Both the position numbers and the translations under genes were made by a program. A stretch of DNA of 39,685 nucleotides from Desulfomonilaceae bacterium (GTDB lineage Bacteria > Desulfobacterota > Desulfomonilia > Desulfomonilales > Desulfomonilaceae): positions 1-39,685 of the forward strand of contig JAVHLK010000043.1 in NCBI GenBank assembly GCA_031082285.1, read 5' to 3'. The notes below the pieces were generated by a model. The model had not been told where the DNA came from and did not search any database. It saw only the letters and a program-made list of their open reading frames with translations. Below are positions 6,671 to 34,116 of the stretch, one piece after another. Within the stretch, counting starts at the first letter, position 1. Each line of letters begins with the position of its first letter.

Positions 6671-7718
6671 CGGTTTTCCATCTCAAGTGCTCGGAGCGCA
6701 ACTTCTGCGCAGCCTCCTCCGCACGCTCCGTATGTGCTCCAAGGTCGAGATAGGCCTGAACCGGATGAACACAGCGAATTCCGCCGAGTTTCGTCGCGCC
6801 GTGAAACACACCCTCGTCGTTTGGAATGACCAGCCAAACGTTAGCTCCACGAGCCTCGCTTCGGAACGAGAGAGCCGACAGCAGCTCGGTTGATGGCTCT
6901 TCGGCCAGATACAGCGTCGCGAGGCGAAATCCGACAAAATGGTCTAGTAACCAGGCTGCAGCCAGACCGGTTGCGGCGTACGACACAGGACCATGATTGA
7001 GGACGTCCGCCAGTTGCCGCAACAATGCGTCCCCGGCCCGCGCTGCTACGTGGCCTCTAATCAAATGGTGCTTCGAGAAGTCGTAAGCCTCGCGCCAAGC
7101 ATCGAGCAGCAGGTCGGGGTCTCTCGGTCTGATGGTTCCGTTGTCGTCTCCAACGACCAACCCGTCATCTTCTAACCTACTAACGATTCTGCTTGTGTAC
7201 CCTTCGTCCATGCCGGTGGCCCGAGCAATCTCTCGCCGGCTCAAGGGTTGAGTGGCATGCATGAGCAACCACCTCGGGATGCGCGAGCTTTTGGGAGCAA
7301 ACACGGTGGACGGGCGTCCGCGTTGCTTATACCGATTGGGTTTGCCCTCGATGAGGACACGAAGTCCCGGGGCGAAGATTCGAGAATTACCGGACAGGTC
7401 CATCCAGGAGACTCCGGCATCCGCACACCGCCTCCGTCCGACCTCACCCATGAAGGGAACGGCCACTAAGGGGACGACAACCCCATCGATGCCTTTGGCG
7501 CGGTTGCGCACCTGTTCCATGGCAGCGGAGATCGCGGCCGAGCGGCCGGAGCCTTTCCATTCGACGACGAACACAAGAGATCCGGCCCGCAATACCCGAT
7601 CAGTGTGACTTATGGGATCGTCCGCATCCAGACAAACCTCAAGCCGGTCCACGTCGAGCAGCTCCGCGAGACGTTGGGAGATCATTTGCAGTGCTTGCCG
7701 TTCAGATGGCGCCTTCAT
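6663..7718 (-). CDS. AbiEi-family antitoxin / repressor with nuclease-like N-domain
   Basis: 351 residues. The C-terminal two-thirds hold a winged helix (about 148-190, 'LSRREIARATGMDEGYTSRI') and the AbiEi C-terminal domain. The first ~125 residues have the pattern 'LVFVVEWKGSG' (48-58) and 'AGVSWMDLSGN' (101-111), seen in the antitoxin subfamily whose N-terminus resembles a PD-(D/E)xK fold; Glu53-x-Lys55 would be the E-x-K. AbiEi proteins bind inverted repeats in their own promoter and repress toxin expression. The ATG at 7716-7718 lies directly beside a repeat copy and a predicted -10, so the transcript is probably leaderless. The toxin gene follows with an 8-base overlap. Confidence 0.85.
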   Translation of the reverse strand: MKAPSERQALQMISQRLAELLDVDRLEVCLDADDPISHTDRVLRAGSLVFVVEWKGSGRSAAISAAMEQVRNRAKGIDGVVVPLVAVPFMGEVGRRRCADAGVSWMDLSGNSRIFAPGLRVLIEGKPNRYKQRGRPSTVFAPKSSRIPRWLLMHATQPLSRREIARATGMDEGYTSRIVSRLEDDGLVVGDDNGTIRPRDPDLLLDAWREAYDFSKHHLIRGHVAARAGDALLRQLADVLNHGPVSYAATGLAAAWLLDHFVGFRLATLYLAEEPSTELLSALSFRSEARGANVWLVIPNDEGVFHGATKLGGIRCVHPVQAYLDLGAHTERAEEAAQKLRSEHLRWKTDG

Positions 7719-10578: not shown

Positions 10579-10741
10579 GATTTCGCCTCCGGCCCGGCGA
10601 CGAGCACATGCGTTTCTTTGTGTATACCTGCTTTCACGACCCTTCCATCGCCTCGCGCGCAACCCAAGGATTCATTCGTGACGAACCAATGTGCCTGTTG
10701 GTATACTGCATCTTAACCAAATACGAAATAGGGAGCAGGCT

Positions 10742-11836
10742 GTGATCCGAACGTGGTTAACGGTTCTGACGGTTGTCGTCCTCGCTGCGGCATTCTCTTG
10801 GGCCGGGAAGACAGACTTTGAAGATGCTCGGCCCGGGAGAACGCTCACCTTTCCACGGGACCACGGCAAGCATCCCGAGTTCCAAACGGAGTGGTGGTAC
10901 TTCACCGGAAACCTGACCTCGGACCGGCGAGAGTGGGGATTTCAACTCACGTTCTTTCGCCGCGGCATGGTCAAGGAGCCTGCCGAAAGGAAATCAGCGT
11001 GGGCCGTGAGAGACCTTTATCCCGCACATTTCGCTCTCACGGATGTGACCGGAAAGAAATTCCATCATGCCGAACTGCTTTCCCGCGAGGGCCCGGGCCT
11101 CGCACAGGCCGATCTTGCCGACTTGAACGTGAGGGTAAAGGATTGGAGCGCTCGACGGAAGGGCGACGAGATTCACGTCAAGGCACGCCAGGACGGCTAT
11201 GCTTTGGAACTCACGCTCAAGCCCCTCAAGCCCGTCGTCTTGCACGGAGACCGAGGTTACAGCCGCAAGGGCGATACGCACCGACAGGCTTCCTATTATT
11301 ACTCGTTCACGAGGCTCGAGGCTTCGGGAACCGTGACCTTCGACGGAACTTCGCACAAGGTGCGGGGATCGGCATGGATGGATCATGAATTCGGATCGTC
11401 ACTACTGCGGGAAGATCAGGCGGGCTGGGACTGGTTTAGTTTGCAGTTGGACGACGGATCGGAACTTATGGTGTTTCGTTTGAGAAAGCGTGACGGTTCC
11501 CATGAGCGACCGTTCGGGACTTTTGTCACGGACCGAGGCCATGCAGTGGACCTGGAAGGCCGGCGGATTACCGTCACGGCGGAACAAACCTGGACCAGTC
11601 CTCGCACGCACGCAACCTATCCGTCCAAATGGACAATAGAAATTCCTTCCAAGAAGATCACGCTTACTATTGTACCTCTGCTCCATGACCAGGAATTCAT
11701 CGCGGAACGCTCAACCGGCATCATCTATTGGGAAGGCGCGGTCAAGGCTCACGGGTCGCTCGATGGGCGTCCCGTTTCGGGCAAGGGATACGTCGAACTC
11801 ACCGGATACGCCCATGCCTTGGCCGGCCGATTGTGA
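10742..11836 (+). CDS. Secreted CrtC/AttH lipocalin-like protein (copy 1)
   Basis: 364 residues with a signal peptide ('RTWLTVLTVVVLAAAFSWA', residues 3-21). The mature part has the CrtC/AttH (lipocalin-like, two-barrel) signatures: 'FPRDHGKHPEFQTEWWYFTG', 'QASYYYSFTRLEASG', 'GSAWMDHEFGSS', 'GWDWFSLQL', 'YPSKW' and 'IIYWEGAV...GYVELTGY'. This fold includes carotenoid 1,2-hydratase and the AttH proteins found with lipoprotein-type ABC transporters, and binds hydrophobic ligands. An enzymatic role is not proven for AttH members. The GTG start at 10742 follows GGGAGCAGG. It diverges from the phosphoesterase gene. A paralogue without a signal peptide lies at 24291-25460. Confidence 0.85.
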   Translation: MIRTWLTVLTVVVLAAAFSWAGKTDFEDARPGRTLTFPRDHGKHPEFQTEWWYFTGNLTSDRREWGFQLTFFRRGMVKEPAERKSAWAVRDLYPAHFALTDVTGKKFHHAELLSREGPGLAQADLADLNVRVKDWSARRKGDEIHVKARQDGYALELTLKPLKPVVLHGDRGYSRKGDTHRQASYYYSFTRLEASGTVTFDGTSHKVRGSAWMDHEFGSSLLREDQAGWDWFSLQLDDGSELMVFRLRKRDGSHERPFGTFVTDRGHAVDLEGRRITVTAEQTWTSPRTHATYPSKWTIEIPSKKITLTIVPLLHDQEFIAERSTGIIYWEGAVKAHGSLDGRPVSGKGYVELTGYAHALAGRL

Positions 11837-12019: not shown

Positions 12020-12886
12020 ATGTCTCACAACAGGATACCGAGATCAGTTTTCGCTTCTCTTGTCGCGGTCCTTTCCCTCATCGTCCTTACAACGACATCG
12101 GCGCAGGCTCAATCGTGGCTTACGATGGCCGGTCCGACTTCCCGGCTGCTTTCATCCATACCGCTCGTGGGCAACCTGCTCAATGCGGATTTCCCCGGTG
12201 CGGCCAATCCAGGGATGCCGCTGGTCTTTCCTCCCACGTTTCACGGAGAAGTCCGAGCCCGGGCGCTCTACCTTTACTCCCAGAAGCAGCGGTTCAGTAA
12301 CCCGGTGCTGGGGTTTTCCACGGACCTGCACACGGACCTGGGCTTCAACGATGAAGGCGCGTTGATCGAGGTAACGGCTCGGGCGCAAGCGGGTCGATAT
12401 TCGTTTCGGGCTCATTACGACGAGTGGCTGACGACGTTCAAGTCCGGCAACGGAAACTTGAGCTGGCCGAACTATAGGATGGGGCTCGATCTGGATCTTT
12501 ATCACACGCCCACCTTTCGTTTTGGAGCGAATTGCGACATCAATTGGGACCACCCGGTGCTCAACGCGGCGCCTCCCGGCATGACCGCGATACACGTGGA
12601 ATGGGACAGGCCGGCAACGGCGGGCGTCCACGCGGCGTATAATCCTTTTGGTCATGGGGGGCTTGCGTTGACGTGCGAAACCCGCGTGCGATGGCCCATC
12701 ACGGAGAACAGCAGAATCACCGAGTTCGAAGCATCGGGAGGATTGAAGGGCCCTGAAACCGTTACGGGCACTTCCGCGTTGCGCGGGGGGTGGCGTTACA
12801 CTACGATCGATCTTCGCAAGGACAAGGCCTTTGAATTGGATATCGTCTGGTCGGGAATCTTCCTGGAGTACGTCTATACCTACTGA
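12020..12886 (+). CDS. Secreted beta-rich envelope protein, unknown family (copy 1)
   Basis: 288 residues. Signal peptide 'VFASLVAVLSLIVLTTTSAQA' ends near residue 30. The mature protein alternates short amphipathic strands with turns and ends in aromatic residues ('FLEYVYTY'), as outer-membrane beta-barrels often do. I do not recognise a named family. A clear paralogue lies at 32845-33702. They share 'FPP...GE-R' near the mature N-terminus, 'GGLKGPE-V-G--ALR-GWR' near the C-terminus, and an aromatic end. Its promoter at 11942-11970 is strong. The neighbours are envelope genes, so a barrel, pore or surface scaffold role is plausible. A soluble periplasmic beta protein is the alternative. Confidence 0.8.
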   Translation: MSHNRIPRSVFASLVAVLSLIVLTTTSAQAQSWLTMAGPTSRLLSSIPLVGNLLNADFPGAANPGMPLVFPPTFHGEVRARALYLYSQKQRFSNPVLGFSTDLHTDLGFNDEGALIEVTARAQAGRYSFRAHYDEWLTTFKSGNGNLSWPNYRMGLDLDLYHTPTFRFGANCDINWDHPVLNAAPPGMTAIHVEWDRPATAGVHAAYNPFGHGGLALTCETRVRWPITENSRITEFEASGGLKGPETVTGTSALRGGWRYTTIDLRKDKAFELDIVWSGIFLEYVYTY

Positions 12887-13775: not shown

Positions 13776-14072
13776 TCAGGGCTTGATCCTCTCGGCCAAG
13801 ACCGCCAGTGCTTTGGACAGCGCGGTCCTCGCTTCGGTGCCGGACTTATCGGCGACCTGCCCCACCGTACCGACCACTTCCCGCATCTTGGCCTTGGCCT
13901 CATCTGAAAACGGCCCGAGATTCTGTTCCACGGTCTGCAACGTCCTTTCCAGGGCACTTACGATGCCCTTGACGCTGCTCATGGGCCGTGCAGCCGTCGT
14001 CGCGGGTTTCCAGCCGCTCACCGGCTCGAATTTTCGCTTCAAGAGTTCGGACAGATCCGGCTTTTCACTCAT
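13776..14072 (-). CDS. Small helical protein, unknown
   Basis: 98 residues starting 'MSEKPDLSELLKRKFEPVSG'. From residue ~30 it is almost wholly predicted helix with heptad-like spacing ('VSALERTLQTVEQNLGPFSD', 'AKMREVVGTVGQVADKSG'), like small coiled-coil or amphipathic proteins. There is no signal peptide and no cysteine. GGGAGGG lies seven bases upstream of the ATG at 14070-14072, which decides the start. No family is recognised and there is no operon partner. A role in envelope or polyhydroxyalkanoate-granule-type packing could be imagined but is not supported. Confidence 0.65.
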   Translation of the reverse strand: MSEKPDLSELLKRKFEPVSGWKPATTAARPMSSVKGIVSALERTLQTVEQNLGPFSDEAKAKMREVVGTVGQVADKSGTEARTALSKALAVLAERIKP

Positions 14073-14433
14073 GGTAGTCCCTCCCTTCAGATTCGGTGAC
14101 CGGATGTTCATTGACCATTAACGATCACGGAGTCCTCCGGTCATAAGAACAATCTAATCAGTGGAAGTGGAAACTTCCAGTGGCAATTTCGTCATGACCG
14201 CGTTTTTGTCTCCTCGACGGTAAAGCCCGTCTTCACCGCTCAGGCCCACGAAGACTTAACGCTGCTGATAGAGCTTGACCGTATCGCCGCGCATAGTGTA
14301 ACCACAAACCAACGGCGCCGTCATCGGGAAATCGTGATTCCTCAGGCTCGCGGACCGTGAACTTCTGAGCAGTCAGGACTGCGGAGCACACTCGCCTCAC
14401 CTCATATTTCATGCGGGCGGGTCAGGACACCGT
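14073..14433. other. Intergenic region with a short hairpin
   Basis: No gene is seen. A perfect inverted repeat, TGGAAGT (14162-14168) and ACTTCCA (14173-14179), encloses GGAA. It lies between the divergent genes starting at 14072 and 14434 and could be an operator. The rest shows no clear structure. Confidence 0.5.
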
Positions 14434-16785
14434 ATGGAGATTCGAGATACTCATCACAACAAGTCCACGGGTCAAGCGCTTGCGTGGGTTTTCTTTTGCG
14501 CTGTCTGCGTGACGCTCGCGTTATCGCAATGGCATTTCACCGTGATCTCGGGTGAGAAGACAAACCTTTATTTCGGGATCCTTGCTTCCTTGGCTTTCCT
14601 GGCCGCCATGCTCACGGTGCGGCACGGTCGTGTCCGGGCAGGTTCCATCGAGATCGCGGTCTCATTGGCGCTGCTCGGGACCGCAATCGCGAGCGGTTTG
14701 CACAGTTCGATCCCGATGAGTTCGTCCTCGCGTGCATTTGTCCTCGCGTCCACGGGTCTCGGCGGTTTCTGGTGCGCAAGGATATTGCTCGACACCGCCT
14801 CGAGACAGAAGGCGTTCGTATGGTTGTGCATCGCCATACTCGCGGCTTTGATCGCTTTGAGTCTTATCGGTCAGGCCATATCCGGAACACCCGTCGCACT
14901 TTTCTCCATCCTTTACACGAATCCCCACCCTCTCGCGCACATGCTTCTGCTTCTGGTGTTCGCACCATTGGCCTTGATCGGCTCGAAACGCATACTGCAG
15001 GCAACCATCGGACTGATTCTTCTCGTTCTCACCGCCGTAGTGCTGTTCTTCTGCGCGACTGCCGGTGCCATCGCTTCCGCGGTCCTGCTCGCTCCGGTGG
15101 TTGTCGCAGTGGTAGTTTTTGCAGTGAAAGGGGCCCGCGCCGTGGGCCTTGCTCTCGTGTTGCTGGCTTTACTCGTTGCGGCCGCGGCTCACTTTGTACA
15201 TTACTCCGCGGCGGAAAACTTTTCCCACCCCAGGTATCAGGTCTACCGAGTCGAGTCCTATCCGTTCTCCTGGCATGTGGCCAAGAACCATCCATTGCTC
15301 GGGGTCGGACTCCGAGCTCCCCGGGAGCACCTGGTGGACGACTACGATCCGTGGCATCCGCACCTTACCAAGCAGGAGTTTCGTCGTCAGACGGCCGAGC
15401 TGGTGACGCCGGAAAACACCTTCTTGGCCCTCTTGACAGGCTGCGGGTTCCCGTTCACGTTGATCTACGTCGGCGCCCTCTCGTTCCTCCTGTTCCGATT
15501 GGTACGAAGTGTGGAGCGCCCGCCTCCGGACATGTATTTTCATCCGCTTGTCCTCCTGGTGGCCGTCACCGGCAGTCTGTTGCACTCCTTCACCACGGAC
15601 ACCATGCTCCACGCCCAGCTCTGCTGGTTTTTCCATGTTCTCGTAGGGCTCATACCGAAACCTTCGGAACAAACCACGGAACAGAAAACGAGGCGCTTGA
15701 GGGCCTTGGCCTTTCCGACGGCAGGAACGGTTGGTGCGGTGATCGTCGGCGTGATCGTTGGAACCCATCCCGCATTGGCCCCCGACAAGTTTGAATTCGC
15801 TCCGTACCTTGAAAGAATTCCCATAATCTCTGCATTCTCCGACGCGGACGAAAAGAACGCGGCCAAGGACCCCCCGGAGTCGACAGCCTCCCCTCCCCCT
15901 CCCGTCCTCCCGGGGGTACTCGTGATCGAGCTGCACAATCTCGATGTGGGGCGGGAGAAGTGGCGGATGGCCCTGATCGTGGACAATTCCGGGACCATGG
16001 CACGTCGGACCGAATCGTGGCCCGAGAGTCGATTAGACGCGGCACGAGAGCTTGTGAAGCACATCTCCGAGGTATTGCCGCCCCACTCCCGGATCGCGGT
16101 ACGGGCCTTCACCGATGAGATATCCCTGAAAATGGGGGCTCACGAGGTTCCCCTGACTGTCAGCAAACCGATCTACGGGTGGGCGGGAGCTCCATTCGAC
16201 GGCCTGGTCGAGCACGTCGGAAAGCTCATGCCTGTCCGCGGACAAGGGGACTTGTGCGCCGCGGTGGTGAGTTCGAGTAAGCGGGATTTTTTCGAGGGTC
16301 AAGAACTCGTCCCGAGGATTGTGCTTTTTACCGACGGTGAGGGAGGATGTCGGTCTTCGGCCGCGTCGAAGATTCTCGAGAGACAAAAAACGCACAAAAT
16401 CGGTCATGTGGATGTGATCGCGTTGGGGATGGAACCGCCAAACAGGGAGACGTTTGCCGAACTGTGTGGGGAAACCAAGGGGACTTTCCTGGACGTGGCG
16501 CTCCCTGCGGATGTGAAGGACCTGCCGGCACGATACGCGTCGGTTCTGCAGGCACCCAAGCCGGTGACCCTGGAAATCTCGGGGGAAGGCGGCGTAAAGA
16601 AGGCGGTTGTGGGAGAACCCATGAAATTGCCCCCGGGGCTTTACTCACTCTGGCTGCCGCGTGATTTGCCCGTTCCCCAATCCGAGAAGATGGTCGATAA
16701 TATTCAAGTCCGGGCGGAAAAGGTGACGACTCTCACTCTTTCAAGGAAAGACGGTCGATTGACCGTCGAATCCACAACTCGCTGA
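14434..16785 (+). CDS. O-antigen ligase/polymerase-like membrane protein fused to a von Willebrand A domain
   Basis: 783 residues in three parts. Residues ~15-470 carry about 12 membrane helices. The large periplasmic loop starts 'NHPLLGVGLRAPREHL' and returns at 'PENTFLALLTGCGFPF', which is the Wzy_C / O-antigen ligase signature. Residues ~508-690 are a VWA domain. The metal site starts 'MALIVDNSGTM' (DxSxT instead of the usual DxSxS) and continues with 'FTDGEGG' near residue 631. The last ~90 residues form a beta domain ('LPPGLYSLWLPRDLPV') resembling PEGA or carbohydrate-binding modules. The ligase half would transfer or polymerise lipid-linked glycan at the outer face of the inner membrane; the VWA half would sit in the periplasm and bind a partner. 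I know of no common family with this fusion. ATG 14434 follows AGGACACCGT. Confidence 0.82.
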   Translation: MEIRDTHHNKSTGQALAWVFFCAVCVTLALSQWHFTVISGEKTNLYFGILASLAFLAAMLTVRHGRVRAGSIEIAVSLALLGTAIASGLHSSIPMSSSSRAFVLASTGLGGFWCARILLDTASRQKAFVWLCIAILAALIALSLIGQAISGTPVALFSILYTNPHPLAHMLLLLVFAPLALIGSKRILQATIGLILLVLTAVVLFFCATAGAIASAVLLAPVVVAVVVFAVKGARAVGLALVLLALLVAAAAHFVHYSAAENFSHPRYQVYRVESYPFSWHVAKNHPLLGVGLRAPREHLVDDYDPWHPHLTKQEFRRQTAELVTPENTFLALLTGCGFPFTLIYVGALSFLLFRLVRSVERPPPDMYFHPLVLLVAVTGSLLHSFTTDTMLHAQLCWFFHVLVGLIPKPSEQTTEQKTRRLRALAFPTAGTVGAVIVGVIVGTHPALAPDKFEFAPYLERIPIISAFSDADEKNAAKDPPESTASPPPPVLPGVLVIELHNLDVGREKWRMALIVDNSGTMARRTESWPESRLDAARELVKHISEVLPPHSRIAVRAFTDEISLKMGAHEVPLTVSKPIYGWAGAPFDGLVEHVGKLMPVRGQGDLCAAVVSSSKRDFFEGQELVPRIVLFTDGEGGCRSSAASKILERQKTHKIGHVDVIALGMEPPNRETFAELCGETKGTFLDVALPADVKDLPARYASVLQAPKPVTLEISGEGGVKKAVVGEPMKLPPGLYSLWLPRDLPVPQSEKMVDNIQVRAEKVTTLTLSRKDGRLTVESTTR

Positions 16786-16960: not shown

Positions 16961-18709
16961 GTGCCGTGGATCTCGTTTTCCGGCAGTCCGAAGATCGCGA
17001 AGACCGGGCGGACACCCCACGGTCGAGCGCGGTGGGTATGCGTAGCCGCTCTTCTCGGCATCTGGGCCGGGATCATCGTCATCATCAATCCGGTCGGGGA
17101 ATTCATGGTGAACGACGACTGGGCGTATGTCCGGTCGCTCGAGTCGCTCATGCATTCGGGAGGTCTGGAAACCACGGGGCACGGCCCCTTGCACGCTCCC
17201 GGCGGACCGGCACTCGTCACCCACCTTCTGTGGGGTCTCGCGTTCGTCAAGGCGGCCGGCTTTTCTCTCACCGTCTTGCGGGTATCGGTCCTCACGCTGG
17301 GAATCCTCGCATCCATCGTCCTGTTTCTCATGCTTCTTCGCTGCGGCGCATCGGCCGGCTTAAGTCTGCTGGGAACTTTGACCCTCGTGTTCAATCCTCT
17401 GTTTCTCTCCCAATGCTTCTCGTTCATGACCGACATTACCTTTACAGGTTTTGCCCTTGTGTCCGTGTTCTTCTTCCACCTTGGGGTCCAAAGGAGCAAC
17501 ACACGGATCGTTGCCCTGGGGTTGGCGTTTGCGCTTGCGGCAACGCTGACTCGTCAGTTGGGCCTCGTTCTCGCGGTCGGCTTTGTCGCGACATGCTTCA
17601 TGCATCCCAAGGGCACGGAGCTGGGACGATTCAAGATGGTCATCGCGGCATTGGGCATCGTCGTCGCACCTTGGATCGGCTACGAAGTCCTTCTGCATTG
17701 GCTGGGAAGCACGTCGATCCTCGAGCACAGCATGCTGCACAATGCCGTGATGTATGCATACTCAATGGATGCACGCCAATACGTAGAATTCTTGTCACGA
17801 CACATCCTCGTATCGACGCTCGGGTACGCGTGTGTTCTCATCTCACCCATATTGGCCGTACGATATGGCGGTCTATGGTCCTCCGGGAGGTTCCGACTGT
17901 GCGTCGCGACGCTCACGGCCGGCCTGGCCGCGTATCAACTGCTGCTGTGGTTCGGGATCGTAGATCCCCCGGTGATTATGAACGGTAACGTGATCTACGA
18001 TCTGGGTATCGGTCCGGTCGTCCTGAAGGACACGTACATCATGGGGATCGACCGATTCCCTACGCTGCCCAAGTCGGTGTACGCGGTAATCGTGTACTGG
18101 TCGGTGATTGCCGTGGGGGTGTTCATCGCTCTCGCGGCGGATTCGGTGCGAAACGCGATCCGACGCCAAGGATCGCCGGAGCGTCCTTCGAGCGATTTCT
18201 TGGCCGTCAACTGTCTGCTCACCGCGCTGGTCTATATGGCGATCGTCGTGCCTCTCGGCCCGTACGACCGTTACCTGATCCTGCCCTGTGCGCTCTTGAT
18301 CGTCTGGGTCGTTGCACGCATGCCGTCCCCCAAGAAAGTTCCGCTATCGCTGGGGAGCATCGTTCCGGTCGCGCTACCGCTCCTCTGTTTGATTATCTTC
18401 AGCGTCGCAGGGACTCGAGATTTTCTTGAGATGAAACGGAGCCTGTCCACTGCACATGACTATGTGTTGAACGTCATGAAGGTCAACCCATGCCATGTGG
18501 ACGGGGGGTTCGAGTTCAACGGATATCATTGTTACAGGAAGGGATTGCCGCATCAAACCGGGTTGAGTTGGTGGTGGGTGGAAGAGGAAAAGTATCTCAT
18601 TACTCTTGGCACATTGCCCGGTTATCGCGTGATCCGAACATTTCCGTTCCCGAGGGTGTGGGGACCCGACGGATCGGTGTTTCTCCTTGAACCGGTCATG
18701 GACCAATAA
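16961..18709 (+). CDS. GT-C-type membrane glycosyltransferase (GT39-like)
   Basis: 582 residues with about 11 hydrophobic spans. The first outside loop carries 'FMVNDDWAYVRS' (about residues 48-59). The Asp-Asp-Trp motif after helix 1 is the hallmark of GT39/PMT-like GT-C enzymes, which use polyprenyl-phosphate sugars at the periplasmic face of the membrane. The C-terminal ~90 residues form a soluble tail ('CHVDGGFEFNGYHCYRKG') with two cysteines. GTG 16961 is chosen because GGAGGGG lies eight bases upstream. It follows the ligase-VWA gene by ~175 bases in the same direction and ends tail-to-tail with a second GT-C-like gene. It probably acts on the same glycan. Confidence 0.82.
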   Translation: MPWISFSGSPKIAKTGRTPHGRARWVCVAALLGIWAGIIVIINPVGEFMVNDDWAYVRSLESLMHSGGLETTGHGPLHAPGGPALVTHLLWGLAFVKAAGFSLTVLRVSVLTLGILASIVLFLMLLRCGASAGLSLLGTLTLVFNPLFLSQCFSFMTDITFTGFALVSVFFFHLGVQRSNTRIVALGLAFALAATLTRQLGLVLAVGFVATCFMHPKGTELGRFKMVIAALGIVVAPWIGYEVLLHWLGSTSILEHSMLHNAVMYAYSMDARQYVEFLSRHILVSTLGYACVLISPILAVRYGGLWSSGRFRLCVATLTAGLAAYQLLLWFGIVDPPVIMNGNVIYDLGIGPVVLKDTYIMGIDRFPTLPKSVYAVIVYWSVIAVGVFIALAADSVRNAIRRQGSPERPSSDFLAVNCLLTALVYMAIVVPLGPYDRYLILPCALLIVWVVARMPSPKKVPLSLGSIVPVALPLLCLIIFSVAGTRDFLEMKRSLSTAHDYVLNVMKVNPCHVDGGFEFNGYHCYRKGLPHQTGLSWWWVEEEKYLITLGTLPGYRVIRTFPFPRVWGPDGSVFLLEPVMDQ

Positions 18710-21247: not shown

Positions 21248-22567
21248 GTGGAAGAAAGAAAGCAGGATGCCGAGAGAATTCGCACTTCACAGAATCAAGA
21301 GCAGGATGCCGAATCGCGGAGAACAACAGAGGGCTTGAAGTACCTCGCACTCATCGCGGGCCTTGTCATAATTCCGACCATCGTAGCATTGCCGCTGATA
21401 GATCGACTGATCGCCCTATACGCGGAAAAATCCGACCGCGTTCAAATCCCCCCGAACATCAAAGCCATGGGATCTGACGATCTTATGGCACTTCTCTCGT
21501 CTCGGAACGTGACGGCCGTTGCCTACGCGGTTCAGGAACTGGGAAACCGGCGGACGGAATCCGCGGTGCTGCAGTTGATCGATCGGCTCGACAATAATGA
21601 CTCGCTCCAGGTTCCCGGAATGGAGGCGTCGACGTCCGTCGCGCACCTTGCGATCATTGCGCTCGCTTCCATTACTCGGCATCGGATCGAGCTTCATCCC
21701 GGCAACATCGCACTCCTAAGTCCGCTCATGGAGTCGGCAAACGGGGGCACTTCCGCGGAACGTGCAGGCGCGATCGCGGTCCTTGGAAGGGTTCGTGAAC
21801 CCCTTGCGGTCCCTCTCTTATCAAAGCTCGTGGAACACGGTGACGATCGGGTCCGTGATGCGGCTGCACGGGCCTTGGAAACATTACGTTTGCCCCCACG
21901 AAACAATTTGGTAGCCGAGGTTCTTCACCGGGACGAGGCCGTATATCTAGCGGGACTATGCATTGTAATCCTGGTGAGTCTGGGAACGACCGCCATCTGG
22001 GTGCGGCGCAGGATCCCCGCGAAATCCGTCCTGTTGTTTTGCATGCCCGTCGTCCTGGTCGTGTGGATCACGCTCCTGGCCGGTATTGAATTCTCCGTGA
22101 GCATCGCCGTGGACAAGACGATTGATCGGGCGGTTCAAACGGGGAATTTCCTGTCCCTGAAGGCCATGCTGTACGATGAGTTCGACCCGTACCCCGGAGA
22201 TTCGTATGTGGCCCGATACCTTGTTGAGAAAGGAAACGATCGGGTCGTCTATTGTCTCACTCAATTGCCCTCGTCCGGCCCTGACGACGACAAGAATTAC
22301 AAGGAGTTTCTCGCCAAGAGAATAGATTGGATCCTTTCACGGATCGTTTCACTCAAGATCGCCGATGGATCCCTCGAAGAGTTGTTGGAAAGCGAGAAAC
22401 CGAGCGTGAGAGCTACGATTGTGGATGCATTGGGAAAACTGGGAGTGAAGGACGAAGCGATCTCAGAGGTCCTGAAACGTCTGACTCTCGATCCCCATGA
22501 AGCGGTCCGCGCGACCGCGCGCAAGGCCCTGGGTGCGGTCAAGCAACACCCGGCACGGCAGAGGTGA
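21248..22567 (+). CDS. Membrane HEAT-repeat protein
   Basis: 439 residues. A charged N-terminus is followed by a membrane helix ('LKYLALIAGLVIIPTIVALP', about 30-49). A first block of HEAT-like repeats (about 75-220) follows, e.g. 'AYAVQELGNRRTESAVLQLI' and 'ERAGAIAVLGRVREPLAVPL'. Then come two membrane helices around 230-290, and a second HEAT block at the C-terminus ('VRATIVDALGKLGVKDEAIS', 'VRATARKALGAV'). HEAT solenoids bind proteins; the two blocks probably face the same side of the membrane or opposite sides depending on topology, which I cannot fix. GTG 21248 has a weak GAGGG site 11 bases upstream. It lies in line with the mini-lipoprotein and the condensation-type enzyme, suggesting an operon. 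Confidence 0.75.
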   Translation: MEERKQDAERIRTSQNQEQDAESRRTTEGLKYLALIAGLVIIPTIVALPLIDRLIALYAEKSDRVQIPPNIKAMGSDDLMALLSSRNVTAVAYAVQELGNRRTESAVLQLIDRLDNNDSLQVPGMEASTSVAHLAIIALASITRHRIELHPGNIALLSPLMESANGGTSAERAGAIAVLGRVREPLAVPLLSKLVEHGDDRVRDAAARALETLRLPPRNNLVAEVLHRDEAVYLAGLCIVILVSLGTTAIWVRRRIPAKSVLLFCMPVVLVVWITLLAGIEFSVSIAVDKTIDRAVQTGNFLSLKAMLYDEFDPYPGDSYVARYLVEKGNDRVVYCLTQLPSSGPDDDKNYKEFLAKRIDWILSRIVSLKIADGSLEELLESEKPSVRATIVDALGKLGVKDEAISEVLKRLTLDPHEAVRATARKALGAVKQHPARQR

Positions 22568-22849: not shown

Positions 22850-24250
22850 ATGGAAATGGAGTATTCCAGGCTCGACCCTCCGTCGGAGACCTTGGCTCTT
22901 ACTACTCGAAAGAACACCAAGAATCTCATTCTCGCAACAATCGATCTGAGGGGACGGATCGATCCGGGAGTCATGACCCGGGCCATTGGAAGCATCGGCC
23001 GCGATTACCCATTGTTGAGGGCTTGCCTGAAGGAGGTAAGAGAGCACGGCCGTTACTATCTCGAGTGGGACTTTCGCCCGGAGTTGGAGATCCCGTTGAT
23101 TCTCCACGACGCGACCGACGCGGACCGGGAAGCAAACAGCCTCGACTTGGTGCTGAGATGTTTGGAACCCTATCTCGACCGGGAACGGAACCTGCTCGGC
23201 GAACAGCCGGCTGAATTGCATCTGATCGGTGTTGCGCGCGATCGGCACCTACTCGCGTCGGTTGTCCATCACGCAGCGTGTGATGCAGCGATCGCATCGG
23301 AAGTGGGCAAGCACTTGATGATCAAATACCATACCTTGGCCACGGGTCGCGAGCCGACTACGGACTGTCGGTCCCACGCGGTTTCGACCGCCGGCAAGCG
23401 CACGATTCGCGGCAAGAAGACCGTATGGAAAGACTACCCGGCCACGTGCCGTCAAGCATGGATACCGTTCGGGATCAAGCCCTCGCTTCCCCAAGGAAGT
23501 GGAAATCCACTCGATCTTCGCGAGCACCACGTGAAGAGGGTGTTGTCCGAAGAAGAGAGCGAGCGCGTGGCTCGTAAATCGTCGACAAGACGCGTGTGGC
23601 TCATAGACGATGTAGTGGCGTGTACTGCAACGGCCGTCGACCATTGGAATGCGGCCCGTGACGTACGGCCGTCGACCGTTACCGCTGCCGTGACGGTGAA
23701 CATGAGAGGCAGGTTCGGTGCTCCGGACTCTTCGAATGCCGACAGTGTGCTCTATTTCCGGACCGATCCCGATGAGCGCCGAAACCGGCACTCGCTTGCC
23801 CGATCGATTAGTCTGTCGAGGATCAATTATTTTCGCAACCACCTGGACGTCAAGTACTACAAGGGCATCAACAAGATCAATAACTCATTGAGACTATTCC
23901 CGTTTCCTACCAGGAGCAGGATTCTTCACGGGATCCTGGAGAGACACCGGACATCGTTTACTGTGGTGGCAATGGGCGTAGTTTGGCCGACGGTGAGGAA
24001 CGGCAAGGCGAGCACGGATTCATGCCTGGTACAAGCCGGGGACCTGAGCATTTCCGAGGTGCATGGACTGGGCTATAAGCTGCTCTCAAGCACGCGTTTG
24101 ATAATCGCTGTCTATTTTTTCAGACGGAAACTCAATCTGGTGCTCTCCGCCGCAGCATGTCATTTCACGAGGGAAGAGGCCGACGAGTTCCTGGATCTGA
24201 TCGTCAACCACCTGCTTCAGACCGGTCAGAGAGTCGACTCCGACCTGTAA
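22850..24250 (+). CDS. Condensation-domain-type acyltransferase
   Basis: 466 residues. 'VVHHAACDAA' at 138-147 gives the H-H-x3-D catalytic motif (His140, His141, Asp145) of the condensation / PapA / WS-DGAT / alcohol acetyltransferase fold. The preceding 'IGRDYPLLRACL' (50-61) matches the typical 'H/Y-P-x-L-R' helix, and 'VTAAVTVNMRGRFG' the second-lobe strand. These enzymes move an acyl group from CoA or a carrier protein to an alcohol or amine. With no carrier protein or NRPS modules nearby, a stand-alone O-acyltransferase for a glycolipid or polysaccharide is the best reading. The final Gly of HHxxxDG is Ala here. It follows the HEAT gene and is convergent with the second CrtC/AttH gene. 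Confidence 0.8.
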   Translation: MEMEYSRLDPPSETLALTTRKNTKNLILATIDLRGRIDPGVMTRAIGSIGRDYPLLRACLKEVREHGRYYLEWDFRPELEIPLILHDATDADREANSLDLVLRCLEPYLDRERNLLGEQPAELHLIGVARDRHLLASVVHHAACDAAIASEVGKHLMIKYHTLATGREPTTDCRSHAVSTAGKRTIRGKKTVWKDYPATCRQAWIPFGIKPSLPQGSGNPLDLREHHVKRVLSEEESERVARKSSTRRVWLIDDVVACTATAVDHWNAARDVRPSTVTAAVTVNMRGRFGAPDSSNADSVLYFRTDPDERRNRHSLARSISLSRINYFRNHLDVKYYKGINKINNSLRLFPFPTRSRILHGILERHRTSFTVVAMGVVWPTVRNGKASTDSCLVQAGDLSISEVHGLGYKLLSSTRLIIAVYFFRRKLNLVLSAAACHFTREEADEFLDLIVNHLLQTGQRVDSDL

Positions 24251-24290: not shown

Positions 24291-25460
24291 CTAGAATTTG
24301 CCGCCTGCCGGTTCGCAGTATCCCACCAGTTCAACGTGGCCCCTTCCGGTGACGGCCCGGTCGTCCATGGTTCCGGAAATATCGACGGGTCCTTCCCAGT
24401 AATTTATCGTCGTCGATGTGCCTGAAATCAATTCATGTTCTCGGATACGCGCGCGTATCGTGAACCGAGAGTCGATGGAATTTACGGCGACCGTCCACTG
24501 CACGGGATAACAAGCCCCCGTCAATGGGCTCTCCCACTGGTCGGTGATCGCAACGTGAAAATCGTCGAAACCGAGAAGCCGGCTCGTGCCGTCAGGCCGT
24601 ATCAACGTGCCCGTCGAGGTTCGAGAAATCGTGCCGTCCAGTTCTCTTATGAGACTGAGCATAATTTCCACCTTGTTGTCGAACGTCAGGCCAAACCAAT
24701 CCCAACCCCTTAATGATTTTGGGAACATGGAGGTCCCGAACTCCCTGTCCATCCAGCTCGTTCCCGTTACCCGAAGTTCGGTACCCCGCCATTTCAAGGT
24801 ACCGGACGTCTCTAAAGACGTCAGAGAATAGTGATAGGAGGCTTGGCCCGCGTCTTGTCCCTTCCTGGCCAACCCGTTGAGGCCGTGGACGACCGGAGGT
24901 TTCAGCGGCACAAGGTTCAGTGCAATGGCAGAGCCTTGTCGCTCGGCAATCGCACGAATGGATCCGGAGTCTTCTTCAAGAATCCAGCTCTTCAACCGTA
25001 CACTTAAACAGTCGTCACGCGCGTGTGCGATGTTGAACAGGGAACTCCCGCCACTCTGAAAGAACACGAAACGCCGTTCCTTGATGTTGGTGATCGCGAG
25101 GTGCCCCACGTACCCATCGACGTTGATGCGTCGGCAATTCTGCCGCTCCAGCATTTCTGCAACGCTGCGTTGGAACGTCTTGAGTCTTCGTATGGACCTG
25201 CTGCACGTTCCCAAAGACAAGACGGCAAGATCCCTCCACCGCTCAAGGGCTCGCCGAAAGATCGTGAACTGATAACCCCATTCAGAACCGTCCTCGGAAC
25301 GGAGCTGTCCTGAGAGGTACCACCACTCGGTCCGGTACTCCGAGTGCCTCCCATGATCCCTCGGAAACGTCAGGATACGCACTTCATCGGCACGAAGAAG
25401 ATCTCGAGTACTGGTGCGATCGGATATGTGTAATGTTGTCTTGGATGATTTGGACATCAT
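24291..25460 (-). CDS. CrtC/AttH lipocalin-like protein without signal peptide (copy 2)
   Basis: 389 residues sharing all signatures of the copy at 10742: 'TFPRDHGRHSEYRTEWWYLSG', 'QASYHYSLTSLETSG', 'GTSWMDREFGTS', 'GWDWFGLTF', 'YPVQW' and 'INYWEGPV...GHVELVGY'. Unlike copy 1 it has no hydrophobic signal; the first ~30 residues are polar ('SKSSKTTLHISDRTSTRDLL'). It should therefore be cytoplasmic or need another route. It has an extra ~30-residue basic segment near 75-110. It converges on the acyltransferase gene with ~40 bases between stops, so the pair may act on the same hydrophobic product. The start is uncertain among TTG 25469, ATG 25460 and ATG 25457. Confidence 0.8.
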   Translation of the reverse strand: MMSKSSKTTLHISDRTSTRDLLRADEVRILTFPRDHGRHSEYRTEWWYLSGQLRSEDGSEWGYQFTIFRRALERWRDLAVLSLGTCSRSIRRLKTFQRSVAEMLERQNCRRINVDGYVGHLAITNIKERRFVFFQSGGSSLFNIAHARDDCLSVRLKSWILEEDSGSIRAIAERQGSAIALNLVPLKPPVVHGLNGLARKGQDAGQASYHYSLTSLETSGTLKWRGTELRVTGTSWMDREFGTSMFPKSLRGWDWFGLTFDNKVEIMLSLIRELDGTISRTSTGTLIRPDGTSRLLGFDDFHVAITDQWESPLTGACYPVQWTVAVNSIDSRFTIRARIREHELISGTSTTINYWEGPVDISGTMDDRAVTGRGHVELVGYCEPAGGKF

Positions 25461-26124: not shown

Positions 26125-26937
26125 ATGGACTATTGCTGTTTGAACTGCCCCATTATCGATCCCGTTCTCATCCGATTAGGCCCGTTGGCGATCAGCTGGT
26201 ACGGTCTCATGTACGGCGCGGCCGCGATCTCGTGGCTCTTGATCACCAGGTCCGAGATCCTGAGAAGACGCGGTCCGATTCCGGTTCAAGCACTTCCGGA
26301 GCTTTTCGTCCACGGTTTGGTGGGTGCCGTAATTGGAGGCCGACTCGGATACGTTCTCCTGTACAACCTTCCTTACTTCTTTGAAAAGCCATGGGAAATC
26401 TTTGCGTTTTGGTACGGCGGCATGAGCATCCACGGAGGATTCGTCGGAATGGGAATCGGAGGACTTGTCTTTCTCCACCGACACTCCGTGCCCATAGAAG
26501 AGCTTGCCGATGTCACATTTCTCGGAATCGCGCCCGGTTTAATGCTCATCAAGATCGCGAATTTCATCAATTGCGAGTCATTCGGCACCGCGACCACGCT
26601 GCCGTGGGGAACAGTCTTCCCGGATGGAGGACCGCTGCCCCGTCATCCGGTTCAGTTGTACGAGGCGGTGCTGCAAGGGCCGATTCTTTTCGCAATATTG
26701 TGGCTCGTCCGTTCACGATCTCACCAACCGGGGGACGTGTGCAATTTTTTCCTCATGGGGTACGGGGCGTTTCGCTTTCTCACGGACTACGTGCGAGAAC
26801 CGGATCCCTATTTCGGCATCGTCATGGGATGGCTCTCCATGGGCCAGATTCTGTCGCTGTGTACCATAGCCGTCGGTCTCGTCTGTCACGTGATCGGGAG
26901 ACGAAAGTCCAAAACTCACGGGACTTCCATGACCTGA
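26125..26937 (+). CDS. lgt: Prolipoprotein diacylglyceryl transferase, variant
   Basis: 270 residues with seven predicted membrane helices. Lgt transfers diacylglycerol from phosphatidylglycerol to the lipobox cysteine of preprolipoproteins. Motifs fall at the E. coli positions: Tyr26 ('ISWYGLMY'), His103 ('GGMSIHGG'), Asn146, Glu151 and Gly154 ('ANFINCESFG'), 'RHPVQLYEA' near 173-181, and 'VREPDP' at 223-228 for the essential C-terminal Arg. Two positions differ: Lys143 replaces the essential Arg, and Cys150 replaces Gly of 'NFINGE'. The N-terminus also carries three cysteines ('DYCCLNCP'). It is therefore either a functional variant or a divergent second Lgt. It lies alone, convergent with a secreted TPR gene. 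AGGTGTG precedes the ATG. Confidence 0.88.
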   Translation: MDYCCLNCPIIDPVLIRLGPLAISWYGLMYGAAAISWLLITRSEILRRRGPIPVQALPELFVHGLVGAVIGGRLGYVLLYNLPYFFEKPWEIFAFWYGGMSIHGGFVGMGIGGLVFLHRHSVPIEELADVTFLGIAPGLMLIKIANFINCESFGTATTLPWGTVFPDGGPLPRHPVQLYEAVLQGPILFAILWLVRSRSHQPGDVCNFFLMGYGAFRFLTDYVREPDPYFGIVMGWLSMGQILSLCTIAVGLVCHVIGRRKSKTHGTSMT

Positions 26938-27118: not shown

Positions 27119-28357
27119 CTATTGGGGGCGCACCATAAAACTCACGGGAACGGTCGGGCCGTTGACGATCTTAAGCAGGCCGACCACCTTGCCGGTTCCG
27201 TATACGGTTCCCTGGAACGAGTGTCCCTCGGGACTGCGGCCCCTCACGATTTTACCGTCGAACGTTCCGTCAAACGGGAACGATAGGCTGTCGGTCAAAG
27301 GAGAATCAAAGGTCAGGACCCCTGAAATGACGTCGCCGACCTGGTTGATGTCAAGTCCAACCTGGACGCCTTGGTACTCGGAGTTCCATCGACCCGACAA
27401 GACGATCGGATCCTCGCCCGTGGGCGCGTCCGGCGACTCATCGGGAACGTCGGCGCCGGGAGTGTCCCCTTCTTCTTCAAGAACCGCCGGCTCCCCCGGA
27501 GTAACCGTGTCCGACTCCTTCGGGTCGCCATAACCGTCCCTATCGTGCTCATCGACATCCGGTACGCGTGCACTGCGGGTTGGGCCGGAGGCTTCGCCCG
27601 CATCGGCCGGCGGATTCGGTTCATTCCCGTGACCGATGGACTCATTGATCGGCGGCTCCTCTGCATCGGCCCGTGAGGGCAGAGCCGCGATCCAGGCTTC
27701 GATTCGGTCCTTCCATTTGGGGTCCCCCAACCCCTGGAGGGCCCTGTTCAGCTCACGCCGGGCTTCGGCCGCGCGTCCTGAAAGCATGAGTGCCACGCCC
27801 AGGTTGAGAACAGCATCATTGTTGTCGGGTTCCAGATCCAGCACCTTCCGAAATTCGCGCACCGCGGACTCGTGGCGTTCCAGTGCCGTGTACACAACGC
27901 CTAACCCGAAGTGAGACGCCGCGTACGAGGGGTCGAGTTCCACCGCCTTACGAAATTGGGGCAACGCCTTGTCGTGTTGTGATGCCAGATTGTACCACGT
28001 TCCCCGCTTGGTATACCCCCACGGATCCCGAGGCTTCAACTGAATGTAACGATCCACGTCGGCAGACGCTTTGTCGCGCCTCCCCAACTGTTCATAGGCT
28101 TGAGACCGATATTTGAACGCTTCCGCCTTCCCCCCCTTGGCGATTGCCGATGTGAGAAGCCGAACCGCGCGGTGGTTGTCGCCCCGTTCAACTGCAGCCT
28201 TGCCCAGTTGCGTGTAGAAAGCATCCCCCTCCTTGAGCGGTTCCGGTCGAGAAGAGGTCGCTGATTCCGCACCCACGGTCCCACACTGCCCAACGATCCA
28301 TACCGAACAAACAACGATCGCCGCCAGTGGGAGGATTTTCTCGATATGACGCCACAC
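27119..28357 (-). CDS. Secreted TPR protein with C-terminal beta domain
   Basis: 412 residues. A signal sequence ('ILPLAAIVVCSVWIVGQCGT') is followed by about four TPRs (residues ~45-215, e.g. 'YAASHFGLGVVYTALERHES'). Next comes a ~90-residue acidic, Pro-rich low-complexity linker (about 225-315). The last ~95 residues are a beta-rich domain starting 'VLSGRWNSEYQGVQVGLDIN' and ending 'GPTVPVSFMVRPQ'; I do not recognise this domain. TPRs suggest a periplasmic scaffold for export or assembly. A Cys within the signal region ('GQC') makes a lipoprotein possible but the lipobox is poor. GTG 28355-28357 has GGGAGAAG upstream. The neighbouring Wza-like gene diverges from it. Confidence 0.78.
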   Translation of the reverse strand: MWRHIEKILPLAAIVVCSVWIVGQCGTVGAESATSSRPEPLKEGDAFYTQLGKAAVERGDNHRAVRLLTSAIAKGGKAEAFKYRSQAYEQLGRRDKASADVDRYIQLKPRDPWGYTKRGTWYNLASQHDKALPQFRKAVELDPSYAASHFGLGVVYTALERHESAVREFRKVLDLEPDNNDAVLNLGVALMLSGRAAEARRELNRALQGLGDPKWKDRIEAWIAALPSRADAEEPPINESIGHGNEPNPPADAGEASGPTRSARVPDVDEHDRDGYGDPKESDTVTPGEPAVLEEEGDTPGADVPDESPDAPTGEDPIVLSGRWNSEYQGVQVGLDINQVGDVISGVLTFDSPLTDSLSFPFDGTFDGKIVRGRSPEGHSFQGTVYGTGKVVGLLKIVNGPTVPVSFMVRPQ

Positions 28358-28846: not shown

Positions 28847-29935
28847 ATGGTAATCCCAACAAGAACTCGACCATTCTCTACTCTTCTTGTCCGCGCCCTT
28901 GCGGTAGGGATCTTGTGCGCCTTGGTCTCCGGATGCATCGGGTTGGTCCCCTCGCCCTTTCGGCCGTCTCCGGGACCGCAAAAAACCCCTCATCTGAATG
29001 ACTTGGCTGAAGCCTTTGACATCGTTTGCCGAAACTATCGCCTCGGTCCCAACGACTTGCTTCGCGTGCTCTATCAGACCGAGTGGTCCGTTCCTCCCGG
29101 CAGTTTCAGACTTGACACTCTGGATGAGATCAGTATCGAATTCATTCTCGATCCTGCGCTCAATGTGCAGAGAGTCATTAATCCGGACGGTATGATCACG
29201 CTTCCCGGCATCGGAGACGTTCAGGCCGCGGGGCTCACTCGCGAGGAGCTTGCCAACCGCATCGAAAAGGCGTATTTGGACGCCAACATCTTCAGTCGAG
29301 ACGAAACCGAGGAAGTCAAGAAATACCAACTTGTTACGGTAACCGTCAATAAGTTTTATCAGAAAGTTGGCAGGTTGGTGGAATCGTTGACCACTCTGGT
29401 GGGGGGACAGCAGGCGAGAGTGACCGTGAATCCCGACGGCACAATTGATATGCCTCTGCTCAAGGACCGGATTCTTGCCGCCGGTCACACGGTTCGGGAC
29501 GTTGAGGATTCGGTCAACAGGTTGTACAGATCCGGTCCACTTCAGCATGTGGTGTGCTCCGTCGCGCTCGAGGAGGCGAAGTCCCGGAAGGTCTACATCC
29601 TCGGGCAGGTCAACAACCCGGGAGCGTACGAAATCCAGCAGCCCATTACCGCGATCCACGCGATTGCATTGGCCGGCGGGCATATCACCGACACGGCCGA
29701 TCTCACCAGTGTTATGCTCATTTCCAAGAATATCCACGGCAAACCAATCGGAAGAAGATTGGATTTGAAACGGATATTCGACATCGGGGACATGGGATCA
29801 GCGATCCTCGTGAAGCCGTACGACGTGTTGTACGTGCCCAAGACATATATTCGAGACGTACGCGTCTTCATGGAACAGTATGTAGCAACGGTCGGGGAAT
29901 TTGCCCAATTGGTCGATCGTTTGACCGGGAATTGA
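28847..29935 (+). CDS. Wza-like polysaccharide export lipoprotein
   Basis: 362 residues. The signal peptide ends in a good lipobox, 'LVSGC' with Cys30. The polysaccharide-export (PES) region appears twice: 'NYRLGPNDLLRVLYQ...VINPDGMITLPGIGDVQAAG' followed by a strand 'QLVTVTVNKF', then 'VTVNPDGTIDMPLLKDRILAAG' followed by 'HVVCSVALEEAKSR'. A single SLBB domain follows ('KVYILGQVNNPGAYEI', near residue 248). Wza-type proteins form the outer-membrane channel for capsular or exopolysaccharide. This protein ends with 'VDRLTGN' and lacks an obvious amphipathic barrel helix, so the outer-membrane pore may be made by another protein. Two BY-kinases and a CpsB-type phosphatase lie downstream, which supports the export role. 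Confidence 0.88.
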   Translation: MVIPTRTRPFSTLLVRALAVGILCALVSGCIGLVPSPFRPSPGPQKTPHLNDLAEAFDIVCRNYRLGPNDLLRVLYQTEWSVPPGSFRLDTLDEISIEFILDPALNVQRVINPDGMITLPGIGDVQAAGLTREELANRIEKAYLDANIFSRDETEEVKKYQLVTVTVNKFYQKVGRLVESLTTLVGGQQARVTVNPDGTIDMPLLKDRILAAGHTVRDVEDSVNRLYRSGPLQHVVCSVALEEAKSRKVYILGQVNNPGAYEIQQPITAIHAIALAGGHITDTADLTSVMLISKNIHGKPIGRRLDLKRIFDIGDMGSAILVKPYDVLYVPKTYIRDVRVFMEQYVATVGEFAQLVDRLTGN

Positions 29936-31703: not shown

Positions 31704-32480
31704 TCACCATAGCCTCCACCATCGCCTCGGGTTTTGCGGCTCCCACTGGGCCGACAATGGTTCCCCCTCGATGACGGCCCGAGGAAAATCCGTCACCATC
31801 CATGCCGCCCTTTCCTCACCGATAATACTTGAGGCGATATTCACCGCCGGCGAAAGGACCGGCGGTCGCGACAGGGCATTGTGTGCGTCCGAGGCCATCA
31901 AGTGAGCCAGGTTGTTTTCCAGGAGTATCTTTGCGGTCTTTGCGGAGTCGGAACCGTTGCCCTCCATAATGCTTGCCGCGGTGATCTGACACAGGATCGT
32001 GAACGGATCGAACAGATTCAGGAGCTTGTACAAGTATTCCGGCCGCGCCTGAATGCCGATATTCTGTTCCGGATGAGCAAGGATCAATCGGTACCCGGAC
32101 TGCACCAGTTGATGAACAAGGTTCTCAAACCCGACCGGTATGTGAGCGGGGTGAAATTCCACGAGCACATAGGTACGGTCGTTCAACGGCAAGATCTCCC
32201 CGTTGAGCAGACGATGCGGCAATTCCGCGGAAACCCGTACCTCCATCCCCGGGAGCACCATGAGATCGATGCCTTCCTCGGCCAGTCGATCGTTGAGTTC
32301 CGCAACCGCGGTCCTGATCGTGTCCGGATCCGTGACGAATTTCCCGTCGTACGCATGGGGCGTCGCCACAACCACGTCAATACCGTCCTCCGCGGCCATG
32401 CGGCACATTCTCAATGTCTCATCGAGATTTTCCGCACCGTCGTCCAATGCGGGCAGGAGGTGATTGTGAACGTCAATCAC
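31704..32480 (-). CDS. CpsB/YwqE-type PHP-domain tyrosine phosphatase
   Basis: 258 residues. PHP metal motifs are in order: 'VIDVHNHLLPALDDG' (H-x-H at the N-terminus), 'VVATPHAYDG', 'GMEVRV', 'LILAHPEQN' and 'LMASDAHN'. These manganese-dependent enzymes remove phosphate from the tyrosine tail of BY-kinases and so reset polysaccharide chain export. Two BY-kinases with Tyr-rich tails lie ~1.6 and 4.5 kb away, so the partner is evident. GTG 32478-32480 is chosen because GGAG lies eight bases upstream and the length then matches the family (~255). ATG 32534 would add 18 residues. It is on the opposite strand from the kinases. Confidence 0.88.
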   Translation of the reverse strand: MIDVHNHLLPALDDGAENLDETLRMCRMAAEDGIDVVVATPHAYDGKFVTDPDTIRTAVAELNDRLAEEGIDLMVLPGMEVRVSAELPHRLLNGEILPLNDRTYVLVEFHPAHIPVGFENLVHQLVQSGYRLILAHPEQNIGIQARPEYLYKLLNLFDPFTILCQITAASIMEGNGSDSAKTAKILLENNLAHLMASDAHNALSRPPVLSPAVNIASSIIGEERAAWMVTDFPRAVIEGEPLSAQWEPQNPRRWWRLW

Positions 32481-32844
32481 GCCGGTGACTCCATCGCGGC
32501 CGTTGCAGCCGGCATGGCTCGGGTTCGCACGCATTCATGAACCACATCAACGGATTGTACGAACCACGTGTCATGGCGGAAGGAATCGAACCGGACATGA
32601 ACGCGAGATCTGCACATTGCGTCAACATGGACAAACAGCGGACCTCTTCAGAACAATTTTTCCAACGGCCCACGGGAACGTGTGGGCCCTGACGACCTTG
32701 TCCCCGGCAGACCGCCGCGGCCCCCTACGTGAACAGCATGAGCAGTACGTATCTCCGGTCGGGTGTCTGCCGGTCGGCATTCGGAAAACCTGCGGAACGA
32801 CACGGGGCGGTCGCCCCGAAGCCGGTACTGGAGCGCTCTCGAGG
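32481..32844. other. Intergenic region
   Basis: No gene is supported. Long plus-strand frames crossing it are antisense to the phosphatase and the beta-rich protein. No repeats or hairpins of note are seen. Confidence 0.4.
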
Positions 32845-33949: not shown

Positions 33950-34116
33950 CATATATGACCTAAAAAAGCAATGGGCTGTTCTATCGTGTCGGTTTCACTC
34001 CAGGAACCGCGGTGTTTCGGTGCACGTGAGTTCATGCTTCGGAAAGAACACCCACCCCTAACTAACTAATCTTGTTATTAATTGTGGGTTGGGGGGATCA
34101 TTACGAGATCAACGCC

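Follow-up and report, generated by a model that had tools for sequence, protein, structure and literature searches.

The window considered here (the whole analysed stretch of 39,685 nucleotides, a contig of the genome of a Desulfomonilaceae bacterium, related to the dehalogenating Desulfomonile) contains a gene of 783 codons that joins, in a single unbroken frame opened by ATG, a Wzy_C-type membrane enzyme, a von Willebrand A (VWA) domain and a C-terminal beta domain (Table 1). The codon bias of this frame is of the coding type, with GC contents of 0.62/0.45/0.69 at the three codon positions. A domain search of the product, as proposed in an earlier note on this DNA, yielded Pfam Wzy_C over residues 196-345 (E 9.3e-11, 42.2 bits vs. 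a cut-off of 31.7) and a partial VWA_2 match over residues 512-567 (E 3.5e-5, 24.8 bits, slightly under the 27-bit cut-off), while the NCBIfam search named no family. The three-part architecture which that note had read from the sequence alone is thereby borne out by Pfam and by the predicted structures described below. Its remark that no described family is known to have this combination also holds for the sources covered: the literature searched contains no description of Wzy_C combined with VWA, nor is there such an NCBIfam family, and the fusion is apparently undescribed so far, as judged by these texts and libraries.

Table 1. Features of the fused gene and of its neighbors in the window.
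Feature	Position	Strand	Evidence
Fused gene: Wzy_C-type membrane enzyme, periplasmic VWA and beta domain, 783 aa	14434..16785	+	Single frame; fused homologues in 6 further genomes of the order
WaaL/Wzy_C-like membrane core, residues 11-412, ~12 helices, predicted N and C ends cytoplasmic	14464..15669	+	Pfam Wzy_C; 7tpg match; helices and positive-inside charges
Conserved periplasmic-loop region: R272, E274, R297, E327-N328...G338 in place of ligase HX10G	15247..15447	+	25-row alignment and residue table
Extra predicted transmembrane helix, residues ~424-442, taking the chain to the periplasm	15703..15759	+	Hydropathy; AF2 helix 415-444; missing from most Wzy-only relatives
Low-confidence linker, residues 459-488	15808..15897	+	pLDDT < 50
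VWA domain, residues 506-710	15949..16563	+	AF2 model and PDB matches, Z ~19-21; profile match to TFB4/Bat/Rpn10 VWA chains
MIDAS-like DNSGT, D517-T521 (D517, S519, T521)	15982..15996	+	Alignment table
MIDAS Thr position = Gly605; conserved Cys608 next	16246..16257	+	Alignment table
TDG Asp D634 (FTDGEG) and conserved Cys639	16333..16350	+	Alignment table
C-terminal beta domain, residues 711-783	16564..16782	+	Seven predicted strands, pLDDT mostly ~88-96
HEAT-repeat membrane protein, candidate partner	21248..22567	+	Pfam HEAT; three hydrophobic segments; within the order, clear homologues confined to genomes with the fusion
Condensation-domain (PapA-like) acyltransferase homologue	22850..24250	+	Weak Pfam/NCBIfam matches; synteny
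Lgt homologue	26125..26937	+	Pfam LGT E 6e-63; TIGR00544 above cut-off; synteny
TPR protein, signal peptide-like N-terminus, candidate partner	27119..28357	-	Pfam TPR; conserved beside fusion; N-terminal hydrophobic segment
Wza-type polysaccharide export (OPX) protein	28847..29935	+	Poly_export and SLBB
CpsB/CapC capsular phosphatase homologue	31704..32534	-	Pfam E 3e-50
Wzz/GNVR co-polymerases (two), each ending in a kinase-like ATPase domain	34072-36432 and 36955-39273	+	Pfam Wzz, GNVR, AAA

Gene neighborhood

The fusion lies in an exopolysaccharide (EPS)-type neighborhood, in which the first of the two Wzz/GNVR proteins matches the polysaccharide tyrosine autokinase domain (TIGR01007). The Wzx/Wzz/OPX setting of a Wzy pathway is represented in the window by the Wzz/GNVR and Wza components, a Wzx-type flippase being found only in the fusion cluster of a relative (G009); neither a glycosyltransferase set nor Wzx was found in the 39.7 kb contig, and the EPS pathway is incomplete there. 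Several relatives of the polymerase part that lack VWA (Wzy-only proteins) adjoin initiating sugar transferases. In the window genome and in the group of G005, G006, G008 and G009, the fusion travels with the HEAT, TPR, Condensation-type acyltransferase, Lgt, CrtC-type lipocalin and Wzz genes. The acyltransferase gene is widespread, unlike the HEAT gene, which tracks the fusion, and the neighborhood of the fusion in G014 differs, so that the proposed partners do not accompany it everywhere. In G014, sensor and regulator genes are found near the fusion; they recur in G013, in a different orientation, near a Wzy-only gene.

Directly downstream of the fusion is a GT-C/PMT-like membrane glycosyltransferase (16961-18709, +), relatives of which lie near Wzy-only genes at two loci (L044 and L045), and two CrtC/AttH-type lipocalin proteins (10691-11836, +; 24291-25469, -), one with and one without a signal-like N-terminus, flank the cluster. 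Upstream of the fusion, 13776-14111 (-) is probably a genuine small gene of 111 aa, with a minus-strand GC3 of the coding type and a weak apolipoprotein-like helical match. At 5828-7718 (-), an AbiEi-like antitoxin/regulator (6663-7718) adjoins a weak AbiEii-like nucleotidyltransferase (5828-6670), possibly forming a type IV toxin-antitoxin pair. The genes at 12020-12886 (+) and 32845-33702 (-) encode paralogous predicted outer-membrane proteins (32% identity), of which several genomes of the order have multiple copies; their suggested co-occurrence with the fusion did not hold, as genomes lacking it have them too, and they were rejected as a fusion marker. No plasmid match and no Rfam match was obtained.

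Distribution and origin of the fusion

A search for homologues of the same architecture recovered the full fusion as one stop-free frame in 7 of the 18 genomes of the order Desulfomonilales (window genome included), spread over three genera, the homologues being 29-36% identical to the window product in the alignment. The earlier note had allowed for a sequencing frameshift merging two genes, and the window genome is indeed a draft assembly (314 contigs, contamination estimated at 4.18%). Nevertheless, a joining of two genes by assembly or frameshift artefact now has a practically negligible probability and may be regarded as refuted, because independent homologues in six other genomes, from two further genera, carry the same fusion in one frame. 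The Wzy_C/VWA fusion is therefore genuine and conserved.

Both halves also exist separately. A stand-alone VWA protein turned up in 17 of the order's 18 genomes, the exception being the incomplete genome G003, where the fusion alone was matched. This protein opens with a short N-terminal stretch and a single hydrophobic helix, which a long linker rich in Pro and Ser connects to the VWA and beta module. The window genome combines all three forms: besides the fusion, it has a pair of Wzy-only genes and a single gene for a stand-alone VWA. One of these Wzy-only paralogues (L002:1342-2784, C242) has an extra C-terminal helix and a short periplasmic tail with no VWA, and is possibly an intermediate or a decayed fusion; a search for decayed VWA remnants beside Wzy-only genes gave no credible match at E up to 1. 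At the loci examined, stand-alone VWA genes do not lie in EPS clusters. They are divergently paired with a gene for a secreted thioredoxin-like Pro-rich protein in six of seven loci (L079:11574-13232, L072:11798-13213 and similar), this protein having CxxC in four of six cases and missing it in two genomes of one genus.

The distribution survey sampled the phylum rather than all bacteria: across the 395 genomes sampled, strong scores for the VWA module are confined to the family of the window, and members of the Wzy subfamily come from two families, the extended (fusion) frames from that same family alone. VWA matches elsewhere in the phylum (30-50 bits) were set aside, these being ordinary secreted proteins with a VWA and no polymerase part. 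Named Wzy-only relatives extend to records from Myxococcota, Desulfobacteraceae and Kiritimatiellota, and no relative with a VWA was found outside the order. Fusions form one clade in the tree of the Wzy part (support 89/86) and lie on one side of a branch in the tree of the VWA part (73/97); a single fusion event is the simplest reading and is favored by these trees, which are not decisive.

Membrane core and catalytic residues

The product belongs to the Wzy_C/O-antigen ligase superfamily (PF04932) by both its significant profile match and its WaaL-like membrane fold. The full-length AF2 model (pLDDT 83), built like the other model on a shallow alignment, comprises a helical membrane part, a disordered linker, the VWA and beta strands to the end, its pTM of 0.60 meaning that the arrangement between domains is not reliably predicted. 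Residues 11-412 of this model match WaaL 7tpg with Z 24.8 and rmsd 4.5 over 362 residues. Helices and charge distribution suggest a core of 12 helices with both ends inside, the C-terminal end being followed by KPSEQTTEQKTRR and then by a 13th helix near residues 424-442; this topology predicts a periplasmic VWA, in line with the earlier note. In the 25-row alignment, most Wzy-only relatives end just before the position of the 13th helix. This helix may perhaps derive from the stand-alone VWA protein, since the latter also has an inside-to-outside anchor of its own.

RX10G motifs have been described for Pseudomonas aeruginosa Wzy; the fusion product has only chance-like occurrences (R100, R420, R423), all outside the main periplasmic loop. 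WaaL-type ligases have an HX10G motif, and P. aeruginosa Wzy-beta depends on its His (PMC4815439). In our alignment the position of this histidine (327) is occupied by Glu, Asp or Gln in 25 of 25 relatives, with the remainder of the motif kept, and R272 and E274 are invariant; the product thus lacks the histidine expected of a WaaL-type O-antigen ligase. A fourth Wzy_C protein of the window genome does have a His with Gly eleven residues on (HX10G). Replacement of the ligase His, together with EPS export neighbors, favors polymerization over ligation to lipid A-core, so that the core would be an exopolysaccharide polymerase rather than an LPS ligase. The original wording, "glycan ligase or polymerase", would be narrowed to its second half on these two grounds, the first being unlikely.

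The VWA domain and its metal site

As the sequence match to VWA alone is weak, structures were predicted. The model of residues 493-783 (pLDDT 88, pTM 0.79) matches the VWA domains of Rpn10, TFIIH subunits, BatB and VWF A2 with Z 18.6-20.8 and rmsd ~2.1-2.5 over ~167-180 residues, from Rpn10 (Z 20.8, rmsd 2.1 over 175 residues) to VWF A2 (Z 18.6). By this modeling, residues 506-710 are a genuine VWA fold, and the suspicion that residues 508-690 might hold none is dispelled (Z up to ~21).

A canonical MIDAS has five metal ligands, arranged as DxSxS ... T ... D. The metal site proposed in the earlier note (DNSGT...FTDGEG) is there as far as the motif residues D517-T521 and D634 are concerned, and it is incomplete, with four of the five ligands kept and Gly605 at the Thr position. 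Fusions in general retain D517, S519, S/T521 and D634, with Gly or Asn in place of Thr; stand-alone VWAs usually keep the Thr and have mostly lost the Asp and the third Ser, only the G012 protein having all five ligands. The claim of metal-dependent partner binding did not fare well: with one ligand of five gone in the window protein and the TDG Asp lost in most stand-alone paralogues, such binding is unproven, and for most of these paralogues unlikely to judge by their residues. For the fusion, a metal-dependent tether is a reasonable guess, neither proved nor excluded. Cys608 and Cys639, which adjoin the Thr and Asp loops, are both present in 17 of 18 rows, and the remaining row (the G014 fusion) has neither, which suggests that they probably form a disulfide across the MIDAS loops.

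Proposed role and alternatives

The fusion product is best filed as a variant of the Wzy_C-type polymerases. We lean, with somewhat better than even confidence, towards a Wzy polymerase of a Wzx/Wzy-type EPS pathway with a built-in periplasmic VWA docking module. The inner-membrane Wzy_C core would join lipid-linked repeat units on the periplasmic face; the gene for a membrane-anchored periplasmic VWA protein would have been duplicated and joined to the C-terminus of the polymerase; the additional membrane helix, which may be the former anchor of the VWA protein, would set the VWA beside the periplasmic active loop; and through the VWA the polymerase would be held to a second envelope protein encoded in that cluster. 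Tethering of a glycan enzyme to a partner via VWA is plausible. The leading candidate partners would be the membrane HEAT and secreted TPR proteins, which could face the VWA because of their three hydrophobic segments and signal peptide-like start, respectively. Another candidate is the Wzz ring, since enterobacterial Wzy and Wzz form a complex (PMC10030265). Against the proposed polymerase with a docking module stands the acceptor-side residue, which differs from that of characterized WaaL and Wzy-beta (PMC4815439). The incomplete pathway of the contig, the deviating G014 neighborhood, the unreliably predicted domain arrangement and the position of stand-alone VWA genes away from EPS clusters at the loci examined also count against it.

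A core acting as a ligase or O-oligosaccharyltransferase, which would move finished glycan to a lipid or protein acceptor recruited by the VWA, could appeal to WaaL as the nearest solved structure, to the Lgt, lipid-type acyltransferase and lipocalin neighbors as hints of a lipid acceptor, and to the protein-binding habit of VWA domains; we consider it unlikely in view of the HX10G His replacement in every relative and of the secreted-EPS neighborhood (Wza, Wzz/kinase, CpsB/CapC, with Wzx in a relative). A regulatory or redox-sensing role of the VWA in place of tethering, with a disulfide across the MIDAS loops replacing the metal and switching the polymerase, is distinctly improbable: the joint retention and loss of the two cysteines and the thioredoxin-like gene beside the free VWA paralogue would fit, but no such gene lies beside the fusion, the G014 fusion lacks both Cys, and a structural disulfide is simpler. 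Binding of the polymer itself by a lectin-like VWA, acting in processivity or chain length, would suit a periplasmic domain beside the active loop; with no carbohydrate-binding family found in the fusion product (Pfam, NCBIfam) and Wzz chain-length proteins already present, we regard it as very improbable.

Returning to the polymerase with a docking module, it bears on the question of what keeps Wzy polymerases attached to the co-polymerase and to the export machinery. A natural covalent fusion of which both halves also occur separately is a Rosetta-stone clue, predicting that the free VWA protein of the order touches free Wzy polymerases, and the VWA part provides a soluble bait domain for partner finding. 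The fusion also marks out a Wzy_C subfamily in which Glu stands where ligases have their histidine. A bolder and rather doubtful extension is that the polymerase is directly controlled by a periplasmic VWA switch, which would sense or grip the export machinery (or its redox state, via the disulfide-laced MIDAS loops) and couple chain extension to secretion; in that case, a general adaptor role in the envelope, with docking to Wzy-only polymerases in the other genomes, would fall to the free VWA paralogue. A link of the fusion to the Desulfomonile 'collar' (PMC7773648) would be speculation.

Comparison with known systems

BatA/BatB aerotolerance proteins belong to MoxR-linked systems, and Bat operons include TPR partners. 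They resemble the fusion in being membrane-anchored bacterial VWA proteins (structural match Z ~19-20) and differ in not being fused to a glycan enzyme; no MoxR was seen among the genes scanned. The O-antigen ligase WaaL (7tpg) shares the membrane fold over residues 11-412 and the Wzy_C domain, whereas the fusion has no HX10G His, no LPS context, and an extra helix with VWA and beta domains. Wzy polymerases with Wzy_C, such as P. aeruginosa Wzy-beta (PMC4815439), share this domain and a Wzx/Wzz/Wza-type gene setting; the essential His of Wzy-beta is Glu in the fusion, and a VWA is not present in the described members compared. Finally, the stand-alone VWA proteins of Desulfomonilales (such as G000 C33, L004) have a homologous VWA and beta module (~31% identity), likewise predicted to be periplasmic, but differ by their own N-terminal anchor, long linker, more often retained MIDAS Thr, mostly lost Asp and thioredoxin-like neighbor.
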